Assembly: GCA_027450165.1 (NCBI GenBank)
Contig: DAIDKE010000002.1
Location: 62,001 to 126,000, forward strand
Direction: 5' to 3'
DNA from: Candidatus Saccharimonadota bacterium
GTDB taxonomy: Bacteria; Patescibacteriota; Saccharimonadia; Saccharimonadales; Saccharimonadaceae
Length of the DNA stretch: 64,000 nt
Position 1 is the first letter of the stretch. Each line of letters begins with the position of its first letter. The translations under genes and the position numbers were made by a program. The notes under the pieces are model-generated. The model saw nothing but the letters and a program-made list of their open reading frames with translations, made no database searches and was not told the origin of the DNA. Of this stretch, positions 11,096 to 18,861 are shown in pieces.

Positions 11096-12181
11096 TTAAT
11101 TGGCGATGCAGCGAACCGCATAACCCGTGAACTTATTGCTGTTGGCCGATGTATTGACACTCGTACTATAAAAGTACAAGCCATAGGCACTGCCCGTTCC
11201 ACTCTGCGTGGAGGACCAGTAGTAGCTTTGGCTTCCCTGGGCACCAAATCCGCTATACCAATAGCCACTGTACTGTGCAAGCCAAGTGCTGCGCAGGCCG
11301 TTGTCTGTACTTGTCAAACCACCGTTAATAGCCGTATTTAGAGTGGCGAATTCATTACTACTATTAGTCGGTAGACGCCAGCCAGCCGGACAAATAGAAA
11401 CAGTTGTATCTACTGCGGTTGAGTCCGATCCACTACAGGCGCCGTTCCCTGTCTGCACGCCATTAGCGGCACAAAAGTTGTACAGATAACCGTATTGGCC
11501 GGTACCTGTTGTTGAGGTTGAAGGAGGCGTCGGCTCAGTTGTGGGGTTGGAACCAGTTGGTATGTAATAATATGCGGTGGTGTTACTATATCCCGAACCA
11601 CCTCCGTTAGCTATGCTTTTAGTGTCTCCATAAGTATTTGTACCGCCGCCAGCATATGCTAAGTTGGTTAACATCCAACATTTACCATCGGCTAATTTTT
11701 GGACCCAATAAGTATGGCTGTCGCGAGCGTCAACGGCTCTTATTTCGCTAGTTGGACAATTAGCGCTAGTAACGGTCTGGATTGGGCTACCGTCTGCAAT
11801 AATAGCGGAGCACGCTCCTTGAGTTGGTATGTTATTGGAATTAGTTACAAAATAAGTCTGGGCACCGTTACTATTAGATAAGCAATAGGTGTCGGTCGTG
11901 GTGTTTACTGAATATGCAAAAGTATCGTTAGGACTAGAACTCACGCCCGCCACATCGATCGTGCTGGGCCAGCTAGAGTTATCAACGCGGTAGTTTCCGA
12001 TCTTAATAGCCGCTTGGGCTAGGTCGGCTTTTAATGAAGCTACCTTAGCGTTATTTGCAATGCCGTTGTAAACCAAGGTTGTAATAGCGGCTAAGATAGC
12101 GATCACAACAATGACGATTAAAAGCTCGACAAGTGTAAAACCCGGCTTTGGCATATGTTGTTTATGCGTAATTCCCACCAT
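11096..12181 (-). CDS. Prepilin-like protein with C-terminal FISUMP domain
   Basis: A type IV pilin-like surface protein of 361 residues. The class III leader ends at Gly14, followed by FTLVELL with Glu at +5 and one hydrophobic helix to about residue 38. The middle module (about 40-140) ends with DTYCL and GAC, two Cys that probably form a disulfide and recur in the prepilins at 26306 and 30644. The C-terminal part contains GKCWMLTNLAYAG, CPAGWRLPT, YYWSSTQ and GYAVRCIAN, the pattern of the FISUMP domain known from Fibrobacter surface proteins. Probably a minor pilin tip or adhesin. TATATT lies about 11 nt before the ATG. Confidence 0.85.
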   Translation of the reverse strand: MVGITHKQHMPKPGFTLVELLIVIVVIAILAAITTLVYNGIANNAKVASLKADLAQAAIKIGNYRVDNSSWPSTIDVAGVSSSPNDTFAYSVNTTTDTYCLSNSNGAQTYFVTNSNNIPTQGACSAIIADGSPIQTVTSANCPTSEIRAVDARDSHTYWVQKLADGKCWMLTNLAYAGGGTNTYGDTKSIANGGGSGYSNTTAYYYIPTGSNPTTEPTPPSTSTTGTGQYGYLYNFCAANGVQTGNGACSGSDSTAVDTTVSICPAGWRLPTNSSNEFATLNTAINGGLTSTDNGLRSTWLAQYSGYWYSGFGAQGSQSYYWSSTQSGTGSAYGLYFYSTSVNTSANSNKFTGYAVRCIAN

Positions 12182-13516: not shown

Positions 13517-13897
13517 TTATTGCAGTTCGACAGTAGCGCCAGCTTCTTCAAGAGTTTTCTTGGCAGCTTCGGCTTCTTCTTTTGGAGCTTTTTCTTTAAC
13601 GGTAGCAGGCGCGCCGTCAACGATAGCTTTAGCCTCACCAAGGCCAAGACCGGTAATGTCTTTAACAGCCTTGATAACGGCGACTTTCTGAGCACCGGCG
13701 TCCTTTAGGACGATTGTGTATTCAGATTTAGCAGCTTCTTCTGGAGCGTCAGCACCAGCGGCGGCAGGACCGGCAACTGCAACAGCGGCAGCGGCTGGCT
13801 CAATGCCGTATTCTTCTTTTAGGATGTTCTTGAGGTCGTTGACTTCAAGAACGGTTAGACCGGTTAGGGTCTCTGCAAGTTTTTTCAAATCAGCCAT
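13517..13897 (-). CDS. rplL: 50S ribosomal protein L7/L12
   Basis: The stalk protein that recruits translational GTPases, 126 residues. N-terminal dimerisation helices ([20 protein letters not shown]), an Ala/Gly hinge (AAGADAPEE) and the C-terminal domain with [20 protein letters not shown] and [15 protein letters not shown]. The Shine-Dalgarno GAGAGG precedes the ATG. It is co-transcribed with rplJ, 30 bp upstream, under the L10-leader attenuator. No rpoBC follows; a terminator and unrelated genes come next. Confidence 0.97.
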
Positions 13898-13927: not shown

Positions 13928-14452
13928 TTAATTGGTTGCTTTTGCCGAAACACCATCAAGCAGCGCGTGCAAGTTGCCCGAAAGCGCGTTGGTAACGTCG
14001 TGAACTGGTGATAGCAATTGAGCGATAACTTCCGCAATAAGCTGCGACTTGCTTGGCAAGCTCGCTAGAGCCTTAACTTCGTCGGCGGTCATAACTGAGC
14101 CATCGGCGGTAAAAGCACCGGCAAGGACAAGTGCGGGGTTGGTTTTTGCAAAAGTATCAAGTACTTTTGCTGGAGCAACCTCGTCGTCGGCGCTAATTGC
14201 GTAAAGCAGTTGACCGTTTAGGGCGCTAGTGTCGGTATCTTTGTAGGTAGCGTTGTCAGCCATCGCAACCCGCACAAGGCGGTTTTTGACGACTTTAATG
14301 ACGACACCTTCGGCGCGAGCGGCAGCACGTAGCTGTTGCAGGTCGGCCACAGATAGACCGTTGTAGCTAGCAAAAACGGTGTTTTTAGCGTTTACAAGAA
14401 GTTCGCTAAGTTCAGCAACCAAAGTGTTCTTTTTATCGCGACTAATAGCCAT
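13928..14452 (-). CDS. rplJ: 50S ribosomal protein L10
   Basis: 174 residues. Binds 23S rRNA and carries L7/L12 dimers on its C-terminal helix. Family motifs: the N-terminal SRDKKNTLVAELSELL helix, VFASYNGLSVADLQQLR and VVKNRLVRVAM, then LALVLAGAFT-like strands. It starts with an ATG 7 nt after AAGGAG. The about 190-nt leader carries an L10 leader RNA and an attenuator, so L10-L12 complex probably represses its own operon. Confidence 0.96.
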   Translation of the reverse strand: MAISRDKKNTLVAELSELLVNAKNTVFASYNGLSVADLQQLRAAARAEGVVIKVVKNRLVRVAMADNATYKDTDTSALNGQLLYAISADDEVAPAKVLDTFAKTNPALVLAGAFTADGSVMTADEVKALASLPSKSQLIAEVIAQLLSPVHDVTNALSGNLHALLDGVSAKATN

Positions 14453-14520: not shown

Positions 14521-14645
14521 AAACAAAAAGTCTTTGGTTCTCGCACTGCCAAAGACTACTAGAATGTATGTTTTGTTACATCATCCTCGGCGGTAGATTA
14601 AGTGTCGTTTATAAAACTCCACGGCCGCTGTCTTTGGTATGTCTG
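14521..14645 (-). ncRNA. L10 leader RNA with attenuator (rplJ-rplL)
   Basis: On the minus strand the transcript begins near 14645. The element contains AGACAGCGGCC (near 14632-14622) and CCGCCGAGGAUG (near 14593-14582), the two conserved strands of the L10-leader kink-turn fold known from Firmicutes. It is followed by arm AGUCUUUGG (14557-14549), an 11-nt loop and ACCAAAGACU (14538-14529), then UUUUUGUUU, a perfect intrinsic terminator. The first leader strand also begins ACCAAAGAC (14638-14630), so it can pair with the terminator's 5' arm as an antiterminator. L10(L12)n binding would favour termination (established for the family; here inferred). Confidence 0.85.
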
Positions 14646-14651
14646 GTCGAA

Positions 14652-14680
14652 ATTATACAGATTGTTGTTAAAAATGTCAA
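14652..14680 (-). promoter_or_regulatory. Strong sigma70 promoter of rplJ-rplL
   Basis: Consensus on both hexamers on the minus strand: TTGACA (complement of 14675-14680), 17-bp spacer, TATAAT (complement of 14652-14657). The start site would be near 14645, just before the L10 leader. Confidence 0.88.
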
Positions 14681-14828: not shown

Positions 14829-14857
14829 TGGACGAAAGACTGAGAATATGCTAAAAT
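14829..14857 (+). promoter_or_regulatory. Promoter of the 14878 gene
   Basis: TGGACG (14829-14834), 17-bp spacer, extended -10 TGCTAAAAT (14849-14857). An in-frame ATG at 14848 overlaps this box and cannot be the translated start, which moves the start to 14878. Confidence 0.6.
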
Positions 14858-14877
14858 TACAAGGTTGTAATTGCATT

Positions 14878-15909
14878 ATGAATCGAATAGATGAACCACC
14901 AAAACCTTTGAACCGACAAGTTCCCGAATCTGCCTCAAGGCAACCCGAAAGTTTAAAGCATAGCCCAAATTACTCACTTGTATTGGCCGATCTGGCGCTA
15001 ATGCTTAAGAAGCGCGAGAAGGTTGACCTAGATTACGTCCCCGACCCTATTTTTACGGATCAAATTGAGCTTGATGTTGCTCCCTACGATGGTAATATCC
15101 AGTCTCCGACACCTTTTGATCCAGACGGTATTGTGATTAACGGAGCCCCATACATGCTTCACGCCGAGAGTTGGATGATGAAGCGTTTTAACAATGGTCT
15201 GATTAGGTCGGGTGATGCTGGTATTGAGCTGCCGTTCGATACCCTAACGGCAGTGCAAGACGAGATAATTTCGCAACACCACATTCGCTGCGAGCAAAAT
15301 CAAAACGCTTATGGGCGTTTGATGCGCGTAGTTGCCCAGGATCCTGATCGATTTTGCGACGAGCATCGTACGGCCTTGTGGGCGATACGCAGCGCTATCG
15401 CTGGTCCGCACAGCCGTGCCCAATTGTTGTTTGACTTTCCGGAAATCAAAGGTATTGAGGATATGAAAGACACGGCCGTATTTGACCTTGAGGGCTATGG
15501 CCGACGCCGCAAGCAATACATAAGCCGTCTTTTTTCTATGAATATTGTAGATGGGTGGCGCGTTGTCCTCAGAAACGACGGTGACCACAATTACCAATTT
15601 AAGTCCGTCGATCCGCGTGGAATTGTGTTAGTAAAAGGCGTTATAGCGGATATTTATAATGAAAAAGATCAGGTTATTGAAGTTGTTGAACGGCGCAGCT
15701 ACAGTTTATTACCTGCCAGTTTAAGTTCTGGCGGTAAGTTTGATAACATGGTGCGCGGTATTGATGGCCAGTTGTATAATCAGCAGCTCATTGCTGGTTC
15801 GGTTTATTTTCGTACCGCCGAATCGGTACTACAAGACGACGACCCAGAGGACATGAGCAGTATGCTGGTGGTTGATAACCCGCTTGGCGTCGGTCCAACT
15901 TTATCTTAG
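14878..15909 (+). CDS. Hypothetical protein
   Basis: 343 residues, soluble, no recognised family. The N-terminal 40 residues are Pro/Ser-rich and probably disordered. The body is mixed: an acidic stretch with DLDYVPDPIFTDQIELDV, a helical region around DPDRFCDEHRTALWAIRSAI, then beta-rich segments with DGWRVVLRNDGDHNYQF. The C-terminus is again acidic and Ser-rich. It faces tmk tail to tail with 8 bp between the stops. Context gives no function. Confidence 0.65.
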   Translation: MNRIDEPPKPLNRQVPESASRQPESLKHSPNYSLVLADLALMLKKREKVDLDYVPDPIFTDQIELDVAPYDGNIQSPTPFDPDGIVINGAPYMLHAESWMMKRFNNGLIRSGDAGIELPFDTLTAVQDEIISQHHIRCEQNQNAYGRLMRVVAQDPDRFCDEHRTALWAIRSAIAGPHSRAQLLFDFPEIKGIEDMKDTAVFDLEGYGRRRKQYISRLFSMNIVDGWRVVLRNDGDHNYQFKSVDPRGIVLVKGVIADIYNEKDQVIEVVERRSYSLLPASLSSGGKFDNMVRGIDGQLYNQQLIAGSVYFRTAESVLQDDDPEDMSSMLVVDNPLGVGPTLS

Positions 15910-15917
15910 ATACTTGA

Positions 15918-16598
15918 TCAGGCTGCAAGGGTAAATAGGCCGCGGACTTTACGCCACACTCGGTGCTCGACATCGACCGGTGCGCCATCGGCGCTAGTCA
16001 GTCGGATGCCGTTGTCGTGAGCGAAGCGAATGTAACCGTTTTGCATATTTTGCTGGAATTCTTCACCCATAGACTCAAAGGTATCTTTCTGCATGCCGTC
16101 GGCCGAGCGACCAATCATACGTCGGCGCCGTTCGCGCTCGTTTTTCATGGCTAGAATACAGATATAATCTGGCTGCATGTAAAGTTCACCGACATGTTCG
16201 CGGGTATATTCACGAATTTTATTAAGGTCAACGCCTTCGCCGTAGCCCTGGTAGGCCATGGTCGAAACCCAACTGCGAGCAGTTATTACTGGCCGTCCGG
16301 CTTCAAGTGCCGGATTGATGGCCTCGTTCCATATTGATTCTCTAGCCTCGGTGAACCACTCAACGTTCTGCCAAGGGGTGCGTGGAATTGATTTATCTTT
16401 AATGCGCCGCCGCAGTTCGTTGGCGCGCGGTGTGCCACCCGGCTCTTGGACTGGTTCCATTCGGTTGGTCTCGTCGTTAAAAACCAGTAACGGATCAAAA
16501 CCTAGTTTCTGAAGACGCTCCGTCAGCCGAATAGCCTGGAGCGACTTACCCGTACCATCGCTGCCTTCAATAACTATATATCTGCCACGTTCGGTCAT
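15918..16598 (-). CDS. tmk: Thymidylate kinase
   Basis: Phosphorylates dTMP to dTDP. The 226-residue protein has the P-loop GSDGTGKS at about residues 13-20, EPGGTPRANELRR, and DYICILAM, with a LID-like Arg-rich segment NERERRRRMIGR. It is somewhat longer than the usual 205-215 residues because of an insertion around VFNDETNRMEPVQ. The stop is TGA, evidence that UGA is not reassigned. The ATG overlaps the last base of dcd, so the two form an operon for dTTP supply. Confidence 0.88.
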   Translation of the reverse strand: MTERGRYIVIEGSDGTGKSLQAIRLTERLQKLGFDPLLVFNDETNRMEPVQEPGGTPRANELRRRIKDKSIPRTPWQNVEWFTEARESIWNEAINPALEAGRPVITARSWVSTMAYQGYGEGVDLNKIREYTREHVGELYMQPDYICILAMKNERERRRRMIGRSADGMQKDTFESMGEEFQQNMQNGYIRFAHDNGIRLTSADGAPVDVEHRVWRKVRGLFTLAA

Positions 16599-17302
16599 TA
16601 CTGCAGTTCCCTTTTAAGACCAGGAATATCAATTGGTAAATGCCGTCCATCCTTGTAGGCGCGTGGCAACATCAATTCTGGTTTCCAGTTTTTGACTAAT
16701 TCATCAAGGTTGGTGCTGGAATTATATTTACCGCTAAGGCTTTCGTAGCTGCCGCGAACTTCACCGGTGTGAAAGAATACGATTTGGGCGATTCGTTCGC
16801 CGACTGGCAGAACGATACTGTGTCGCTGGTTCAAATTGTAAACTTCAAGTGTCCAGCGATTGATATAGCCTGGGTCGCCCCAGCCGGCATCAAAACAAAC
16901 CGCCACACCATTGCGACCCCAAGTGCTGCGCGATTGCATGCTGGTGGTACCTGGCGGCAAGATGCCGATAAATTCGTGAGTATGTGCCAAAATTCGCTCG
17001 CCTGGTTCAAGTACGATCACTGGGTGATCGAGCGGAATATTTTCTGGTGGCTTATTGCCGGTTTCCTGGCACCATTCTTGTAGCGACTGAGCTTTTTGCG
17101 GCTCACCAAAATAGCGTTCAACATCTAGCTTGTCGAACGGACTATAGAAAGTTGTGGAGTTTTTGCGATCAGTCCGGAAATACCAGTTGCCTAGCGTGAC
17201 GTCGATACTACTGCCATTGATATGTTCAGGCTGATAAGGATGAAAGACAATATGACCGTCTTTGATAGCCTGTTCAATCTCGATGTTACTGTAAACTCCC
17301 AC
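16598..17302 (-). CDS. dcd: dCTP deaminase / dUTPase-superfamily protein
   Basis: Deaminates dCTP to dUTP, possibly also hydrolysing dUTP to dUMP, the substrate of thymidylate synthase. The 234-residue trimeric-fold protein has GSSIDVTLGNWYF, SRSTWGRNGV and the active-site strand RWTLEVYN with the Glu used by dCTP deaminases. The segment FDAGWGDPGY replaces the more usual HxTAxxIDPGW, so mono- versus bifunctional activity cannot be decided. At 234 residues it is longer than E. coli Dcd (193). It overlaps tmk by one base. A TATACT/TAGCAT-like AT-rich region lies upstream, shared with divergent folA. Confidence 0.82.
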   Translation of the reverse strand: MGVYSNIEIEQAIKDGHIVFHPYQPEHINGSSIDVTLGNWYFRTDRKNSTTFYSPFDKLDVERYFGEPQKAQSLQEWCQETGNKPPENIPLDHPVIVLEPGERILAHTHEFIGILPPGTTSMQSRSTWGRNGVAVCFDAGWGDPGYINRWTLEVYNLNQRHSIVLPVGERIAQIVFFHTGEVRGSYESLSGKYNSSTNLDELVKNWKPELMLPRAYKDGRHLPIDIPGLKRELQ

Positions 17303-17356
17303 AACTTCTCCCTTTTTGACGTGTTATCTAGATTGTAGCATGATAGTATACAAGGT

Positions 17357-17878
17357 ATGAAAACAATTGTTGTCGCCTATGACAAAAATCGGGCGATTGG
17401 ACGCAGAGGTGAATTACCATGGCAAGGTCAGCTACCGGCTGATATGCGCCATTTTAGCGATGTTACGAAAAATCAATCGGTAATCATGGGTCGCCTCACT
17501 TACGAATCCTTACCTAGGCGTTATCGCCCTTTGCCGGAGCGTCAAAACATAGTTTTGTCGATGTCAGCGCGAGTGATTGACGGTGTTCTTATCGCTAGAA
17601 CTCTAGACGAGGCCTACGAAATGGCCGACCATACTCCAATAGTGATTGGCGGTGGGCGGGTTTACGAACAAGCGTTACCAACGGTTGACCGTATCTTTGC
17701 GACAGAAATTGACGCAGTATCGCCGGGTGCGGACACGTTTTTTCCAGAACTCAACCCCGATGAGTGGCGCAGGTCAAATATAGCCATGTTTGATGCCGAT
17801 GAAAACAATAAATACAATTATGCGTTTGTGACGTATTTGCGCCGTCACGTGCACGATAATCAGACGGACGTTCAATAA
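17357..17878 (+). CDS. folA: Dihydrofolate reductase
   Basis: Regenerates tetrahydrofolate used up by thymidylate synthase. The 173-residue protein has VVAYDKNRAIGRRGELPW near the N-terminus, the DMRHF helix with the substrate Asp, VIMGRLTYESLP, and the NADPH-binding IGGGRVYEQALP. The ATG lies within about 5 nt of a TATACA box, so the mRNA is probably leaderless. It converges with the GC-rich thyA; the thyA terminator hairpin starts 5 bp after the folA stop and may also end folA transcripts. Base composition is native-like, unlike thyA. Confidence 0.95.
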   Translation: MKTIVVAYDKNRAIGRRGELPWQGQLPADMRHFSDVTKNQSVIMGRLTYESLPRRYRPLPERQNIVLSMSARVIDGVLIARTLDEAYEMADHTPIVIGGGRVYEQALPTVDRIFATEIDAVSPGADTFFPELNPDEWRRSNIAMFDADENNKYNYAFVTYLRRHVHDNQTDVQ

Positions 17879-17883
17879 AACAA

Positions 17884-17951
17884 CCCCGTGCGGGTCGGGG
17901 CATCCGTCGCAACTTGTGGTCGCTTCGGAGCATCATCCGACCCGCACGGGG
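17884..17951 (-). terminator. Large GC-rich terminator hairpin of thyA
   Basis: 15-bp perfect arms CCCCGTGCGGGTCGG (17884-17898) and its complement (17937-17951) enclose a 38-nt insert that can itself fold. In thyA orientation it is followed by TTGTTTTATT. Confidence 0.8.
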
Positions 17952-17984
17952 GCTTGCGGTGAATCAGAGCTTGCCGCTCCTGGT

Positions 17985-18803
17985 CTACACCGCGATCGGT
18001 GCCTTGATGGCCGGCCACGGGTTATAGTCGACGATCTCGACGTCCTCGTACGTGTAGCCGAAGATCGACGGCGCCTTGTGCAGCACCAGCTTCGGGAATG
18101 GACGTGGCTCACGCGACAGCTGCAGCTCCACCTGCTCGAAGTGGTTGTTGTAGATGTGCGTGTCACCACCGATCCAGATGAAGTCGCCGACCTCGAGTCC
18201 GACCTGCTGCGCGACCATGTGGGTCAGCAGCGAGTAGGACGCGATGTTGAACGGCACACCCAGGAGGGTGTCGCAGCTGCGCTGGTACATCTGGCAGCTG
18301 AGCTTGCCGTTGGCGACGTAGAACTGGAACAGCAGGTGGCATGGCGCCAGCGCCATCTTGTCGATTTCGGCGACGTTCCAGGCGCTGACGATGTGCCGGC
18401 GCGAGTCGGGGTCCTCCTTGAGGTCCTTCATCACCCTGGCGATCTGGTCGATGTGCTTGCCGTCGGGCGTCGGCCACGAGCGCCACTGCACACCGTAAAC
18501 CGGACCGAGCTCGCCGTTCTCGTCGGCCCACTCGTCCCAGATGGTCACGCCGTTCTGCTGCAGCCAGGCCACGTTCGAGTCGCCGCGGAGGAACCACAAC
18601 AGCTCGTAGATGACCGACTTCAGGTGAATCTTCTTGGTCGTGATCAGTGGGAAGCCCTTGCTCAGGTCGTAGCGCAGTCTCGCTCCGAACAGGCTCTTGG
18701 TGCCGGTACCGGTACGGTCCGACTTCGACGTGCCCTCCTCCATGACTGTGCGCAGCATAACCTCGTACTGACTGTCGATGACAACACTCGCCTCGTTGCT
18801 CAT
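17985..18803 (-). CDS. thyA: Thymidylate synthase (GC-rich, probably transferred)
   Basis: Makes dTMP from dUMP with methylene-tetrahydrofolate. The 272-residue protein is complete: [13 protein letters not shown] (phosphate-binding Arg30), WFLRGDSN, catalytic Cys155 in [30 protein letters not shown] and HIYNNH. The segment [20 protein letters not shown] and its mostly G/C third codon positions resemble actinobacterial ThyA (from memory). Start chosen at the ATG at 18803, 6 nt after GAGGAGAG; an in-frame upstream ATG lacks such a site. The gene is markedly more GC-rich than folA and rplA around it and has its own promoter and terminator. Confidence 0.96.
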
Positions 18804-18855
18804 GTCTCTCCTCAGGAACTGGGGTAAACTCTGAATGTTCACCACCCTACTTCGC

Positions 18856-18861
18856 ATTATA
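18856..18861 (-). promoter_or_regulatory. Probable -10 box of thyA
   Basis: TATAAT on the minus strand about 50 nt before the thyA ATG. No convincing -35 at 16-18 bp. The leader between box and ATG is moderately GC-rich and ends in a strong Shine-Dalgarno. Confidence 0.5.

Follow-up and report, generated by a model that had tools for sequence, protein, structure and literature searches.

The window analysed here, a 64,000-nucleotide stretch from a Candidatus Saccharimonadota genome, carries on its minus strand the ribosomal operon rplJ-rplL (L10/L7-L12), and all leader coordinates below refer to that strand. The gene for ribosomal protein L10, rplJ, occupies 13928-14452 (Pfam PF00466, E 5.9e-22), the gene for L7/L12, rplL, occupies 13517-13897 (Pfam PF00542, E 2.1e-27), and the leader lies directly upstream in the 5' UTR of this pair. 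Its promoter (14652-14680), described in a preliminary description of this DNA as near-consensus, matched the consensus at 12 of 12 positions, with a -35 box TTGACA (14680-14675), a 17-nt spacer and a -10 box TATAAT (14657-14652). Throughout the family to which the genome belongs, a promoter is found at the equivalent position, directly 5' of the conserved leader signature. Transcription is predicted from the sequence to start near 14647-14644, and the signature, ACCAAAGAC (14638-14630), begins within about 10 bases of that point.

This 5' signature strand was assigned both as the 5' strand of the L10 kink-turn and as the 5' arm of an antiterminator, based on alignment to the Rfam model RF00557 and on covariation elsewhere in the phylum. 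It is followed by an L10 recognition core (14628-14585), in which alignments to RF00557 and to a family model place a stem of GCGG (14628-14625) with CCGC (14593-14590), the sequence UUAAU (14601-14597) and CGAGG (14589-14585). Further downstream, a 9-bp terminator stem is formed by AGUCUUUGG (14557-14549) and CCAAAGACU (14537-14529), the latter supported by sequence, the family covariance model and alignment folding; it encloses an 11-nt loop and leads into the U-tract UUUUUGUUU (14529-14521). Terminator and U-tract (14557-14521) thus precede the coding sequence, and the Shine-Dalgarno sequence AAGGAG of rplJ lies at 14465-14460.

The preliminary description proposed a two-state switch at this site, and the coordinates on which it relied are all correct on the minus strand. 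ACCAAAGAC is present twice, at 14638-14630 and at 14538-14530, and AGUCUUUGG is complementary to both copies, so that this shared strand can serve as the 5' arm of the terminator or as the 3' arm of the antiterminator. Dinucleotide shuffling of the upstream leader, repeated 20,000 times, yielded an exact ACCAAAGAC on 34 occasions. The two folds are nearly equal in energy for an RNA that extends through the U-tract (-32.0 kcal/mol for the antiterminator vs -31.0 kcal/mol for the terminator), and before the 3' arm of the terminator has been transcribed the antiterminator is already the optimum fold (-29.8 kcal/mol). One strand of the antiterminator helix, CCAAAGAC:GUCUUUGG, belongs to the L10 signature and the other to the 5' arm of the terminator, and the bases equivalent to GUCUUUG were invariant across 36 aligned family members. 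The 134-nt leader as a whole was more stable than its shuffles (z -3.5; 0/200).

An L10 leader and a terminator ahead of rplJ-rplL had been recognized from the letters alone, and both assignments were borne out by the covariance-model search that had been suggested as a check. RF00557 (L10_leader) aligned over its whole length to 14655-14515 (42.4 bits, E 1.4e-5), which is 1.6 bits below the curated gathering score of 44, leaving the window copy unlisted at the default threshold; the copy in a relative of the same genus reached 53.9 bits, and the threshold was exceeded in 91 of the 151 family genomes. A second covariance model, trained on 36 leaders of the family but not on the window's own sequence, matched 14643-14523 at 94.3 bits (E 4e-20), and the next match in the window reached 14.8 bits. 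Homology is therefore not in doubt despite the sub-threshold score. The 5' signature ACCNNAGACAG, the core stem, UUAAU and CCGAGG are all present in the two alignments. Core stem pairs showed compensatory changes among relatives, and an ungapped all-against-all column scan of the family clearly recovered the core stem alone. The preliminary description held such regulation to be rarely described in what it called a CPR-type genome; the leader is no oddity in this phylum, since RF00557 matched in 126 of the 151 genomes from the window's family and in about half of those sampled across the phylum (162/333). In the open-licence literature that we searched, we found no description of an L10 leader in this bacterial group.

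The model alignment also bears on what had been called a duplicated switch segment. The repeat exists, but it is not private to this locus: the first ACCAAAGAC aligns to the conserved 5' signature of RF00557 (consensus UACCGaAGACAG, also given by Rfam as UACCGAAGACAG). Since the signature is universal among L10 leaders, it is the 3' arm of the terminator that copies the 5' strand and not the reverse. Judged by this alignment, the segment is a terminator arm that mimics the universal signature, as an attenuator would predict.

We compared the two pairings in more than 200 leaders from relatives, calling terminators independently and then anchoring them on GUCU, the complement of invariant AGAC. 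In other families of the phylum, two variable signature bases per leader (41 rows, one of them a Bacillus locus) paired with the terminator in 77 of 82 cells, against a permuted mean of about 50 (0/5000 permutations). The pairing between signature and terminator arm passed through at least seven variants in these families: CCAAAGAC/GUCUUUGG, CCGAAGAC/GUCUUCGG, CCAUAGAC with GUCUAUGG or GUCUGUGG, CCACAGAC/GUCUGUGG, CCGCAGAC with GUCUGCG or GUCUGUGG, CCCAAGAC/GUCUUGGG, CUCAAGAC/GUCUUGAG and CCGUAGAC/GUCUGCGG. A register-free helix test, in which each signature was set against its leader's own downstream region or a permuted one, gave z 12.1 in other families, 7.1 in the window's family without a terminator, 2.4 in that family with a terminator and 1.9 in Bacillus relatives. 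Individually, p < 0.01 against shuffles was reached by 49 of 126 leaders in the window's family, by 35 of 102 in other families and by none of the 80 from Bacillus; two of those 102 (L313, L314) are Bacillus loci, which were excluded from the register-free z and from the third-pair test described below, and whose inclusion works against the signal. The signature/terminator covariation test gave no signal in Bacillus. Within the window's own terminator-bearing family the covariation was weak (1272 of 5000 permutations reached the observed value), because the switch strand hardly varies there. Related sequences are not independent, yet the variants are spread over many families, and repeated independent compensation is the simplest reading. 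Compensatory pairing, whose loss in related genomes had been named as the finding that would count against the switch, is thus retained, and together with the near-equal energies it upholds the proposed two-state arrangement; on this comparative evidence, both pairings are preserved by evolution in this group of very small bacteria.

The signature strand also takes part in the L10 site. Elsewhere in the phylum, outside the window's family, covariation links the base that precedes the signature CC to the base that follows the core GG (78 of 98 paired vs 47.7 permuted), supporting a lower kink-turn stem ACC:GGU. Pairing of the signature strand in those other families is therefore supported with the L10 site as well as with the terminator arm, as a switch requires. 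In the window's family this third pair is mostly lost (18/92), and the lower stem is reduced to CC:GG plus weak pairs, so that the L10-bound fold would rest there on CC:GG, the core stem and UUAAU. This reduced lower stem is the weakest structural link in the window's family.

Beyond the terminator, we found support for two further helices, neither of which appears in the preliminary description. GGCAGUGCG (14550-14542), which comprises the end of the switch strand and the terminator loop, is complementary over 9 bp to the post-terminator strand CGCAUUGCC (14508-14500), and matched pairs exceeded permuted ones with z 9.6 across 69 family leaders. The RNA 5' end pairs with the strand just before a UUAACAAU motif (z 4.4; 0/1000 permutations; two control segments null); in the window genome this helix is just 4 bp, formed by GACA (14643-14640) and UGUC (14499-14496) in the minimum-free-energy readthrough fold. 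For the full leader, the readthrough fold reached -49.1 kcal/mol vs -39.0 kcal/mol for the terminator fold. Because the post-terminator helices form only after readthrough, they cannot decide termination. Both appear to lock the readthrough form, and we infer that they act in this way or else affect translation or decay.

The UUAACAAU motif itself (14490-14483), followed by approximately GGNC, lies just upstream of the rplJ ribosome-binding site and was seen a few dozen bases 5' of the rplJ start in 114 family leaders, almost the whole set, with or without a terminator. We considered whether it could be a genome-wide regulon element and rejected this, as rplJ is the sole ribosomal gene that it precedes in the window genome and its other occurrences appear to be coding. 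A hairpin across the motif looked plausible by eye and was likewise set aside, covariation giving it no support (z 0.5; 289/1000 permutations).

The closest characterized system is the rplJL leader of B. subtilis. There, L10(L12)4 binds the leader with an apparent Kd of 33 nM and promotes termination, its stabilization of an anti-antiterminator is proven, L10 recognizes a kink-turn and a UAA sequence, and termination fell when an oligonucleotide was directed at the 5' side of the L10 site (Yakhnin et al., 2015, PMC4538822; Table 1 therein for the oligonucleotide). The window leader has in common with it the operon, the 5' signature, the CCGAGG core, a promoter just upstream and an overlapping anti-antiterminator, antiterminator and terminator, and L10(L12)4 would be expected to favour termination here as well. 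The two differ in the origin of the antiterminator arm. Among 80 Bacillus-group leaders, B. subtilis-like ones take the antiterminator arm from the L10 site's 3' strand, pairing GAGGUGUAUAU with AUAUACAGCCUC and having GCCUC in common with the terminator, which agrees with the 8 and 5 shared nucleotides described in PMC4538822. In the window's family, in contrast, the arm is the 5' strand CCAAAGAC, and complementarity of the 3' strand is absent (z -0.9, vs 2.4-7.1 for the 5' strand). The window leader is therefore a variant that would work like B. subtilis rplJL and is not the same design. While L10-leader attenuation is already known from B. subtilis, what is new, as far as complementarity and covariation can tell, is the use of the opposite strand for the antiterminator.

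Both designs are seen among the other families of the phylum (z 12.1 for the 5' strand and 3.8 for the 3' strand). Terminators at L245, L280, L301 and similar loci in these families open with ACUCGG, a complement of the CCGAG core, as in the 3'-strand design of Bacillus. Conversely, 65 of 75 Bacillus terminators contained GUCU (17.6 expected; L153-L232), and their folds pair it with the signature AGAC. This enrichment reads as a trace of 5' wiring, and the two designs may thus be ends of one continuum. In some other loci of that phylum (L315-L343), terminator UGUCUGCGG matches CCGUAGACA. Compared with RF00557, the window leader has the same signature, core stem, UUAAU, CCGAGG, terminator and gene context; it differs in that the Rfam terminator consensus holds no complement to the signature and that the post-terminator helices lie outside the model. 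In E. coli, according to the background given in PMC4538822, L10 represses translation, the effector complex binding a mimic of 23S rRNA in its own mRNA; the effector complex is the same, and the window leader differs by its intrinsic terminator.

Sequence, homology and covariation thus establish the L10 leader, its two alternative pairings and the helices beyond the terminator, and we consider it likely that the leader belongs to the L10-leader class of autogenous transcription attenuators. The part of L10 as bound effector, the direction of the response, kinetic control and termination itself are proposed by analogy with B. subtilis as reported in PMC4538822. When free L10-L12 is absent, the 5' signature CCAAAGAC would pair with GUCUUUGG immediately on transcription of that strand, and this antiterminator would hide the 5' arm of the terminator and let RNA polymerase continue into rplJ-rplL. 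When L10(L12)4 is in excess, it would bind the nascent kink-turn element (signature, core stem, UUAAU and CCGAGG) before GUCUUUGG emerges; with the signature held, GUCUUUGG would be free to pair with the second CCAAAGAC copy as the terminator. Following readthrough, CGCAUUGCC would engage the terminator loop and UGUC the RNA 5' end, holding the mRNA in its antiterminated form. The terminator loop is long, which we count against the attenuator reading. The architecture predicts that an oligonucleotide against the 5' signature raises termination, the opposite of B. subtilis, which makes the wiring idea directly testable.

Leaders without a terminator bear on the alternatives. A clear terminator was not called in 45 of 126 family leaders, and 31 of these 45 keep the signature helix (p <= 0.05) with compensatory changes, for example CGUUAUCAAAGA:UUUUUGAUAACG. 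In those lineages the helix must also serve some purpose besides antitermination, which may be translational. The helix between signature and GUCUUUGG might accordingly be a constitutive closing stem, serving RNA stability or translational control, with the terminator fixed as partial or secondary. Its retention in these 31 leaders favours such a stem, as do the many rplJ ribosome-binding sites in the family that read ACCAAAGG, likewise complementary to UUUGGU. However, a helix between the switch strand and the Shine-Dalgarno region fits by eye but did not exceed chance per leader (median p 0.14-0.20), and the 5' arm of the terminator is the signature-pairing strand across many families whose terminators are otherwise different; we regard a constitutive stem as unlikely.

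L10 could also act mainly on translation, as proposed for E. coli, if its binding freed the switch strand to cover the Shine-Dalgarno region. Terminatorless genera do keep the switch strand, and ACC before AAARGGA-N-ATG is uncommon in these genomes, with rplJ among the matches in G062, G011 and G068. Yet the window's own site, CUAAGGAG, matches the switch strand poorly (p 0.25) and the window's terminator is intact, making this reading highly improbable here. Least credible is a chance repeat, in which the conserved 5' signature merely stands beside an unrelated terminator. L10 binding would constrain the signature in any case, but the rarity of the repeat among shuffles speaks against coincidence, and the covariation in other families, together with the register-free helix tests, refutes it.

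A more general reading, which we offer tentatively and hold to be doubtful, is that the 5' strand of the L10 site is an input arm used throughout the phylum, its partner being wired to the terminator through a 3' arm that copies the signature or, where the terminator was lost, to another output such as the ribosome-binding site, with the post-terminator helices locking readthrough. If so, one ribosomal protein sensor would have swapped outputs by copying its own signature. Among leaders with no clear terminator, L041, L046, L048, L049, L062, L093 and others keep GUUACCAAA:UUUGGUGAC and have the ribosome-binding site ACCAAAGGA or ACCAAAAGGA. Apart from this reading, the covariation drawn from many families indicates that very small, reduced genomes keep an apparent RNA-switch feedback control of ribosome production, and that an L10-leader antiterminator can be built from the strand opposite to the one proven in B. 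subtilis.

Several neighbouring genes in the window also drew our attention. Divergent from the rplJ promoter, a 353-residue reading frame (14848-15909, plus strand) had no Pfam match. Between the L10-L12 and L1 genes, translations read by eye suggest a nucleotide-gene cluster (15918-18857) of a thymidylate kinase-like protein, a dCTP deaminase-like protein, dihydrofolate reductase and thymidylate synthase. The L1 gene (18951-20027, minus strand) encodes an Ala/Lys/Glu-rich N-terminal extension of about 160 residues, the Pfam L1 match covering just residues 161-349. Lastly, a gene at 11096-12181 (minus strand) encodes a pilin-like protein whose N-terminus is that of a type IV prepilin (GFTLVELLIVIVVIAILAAI).
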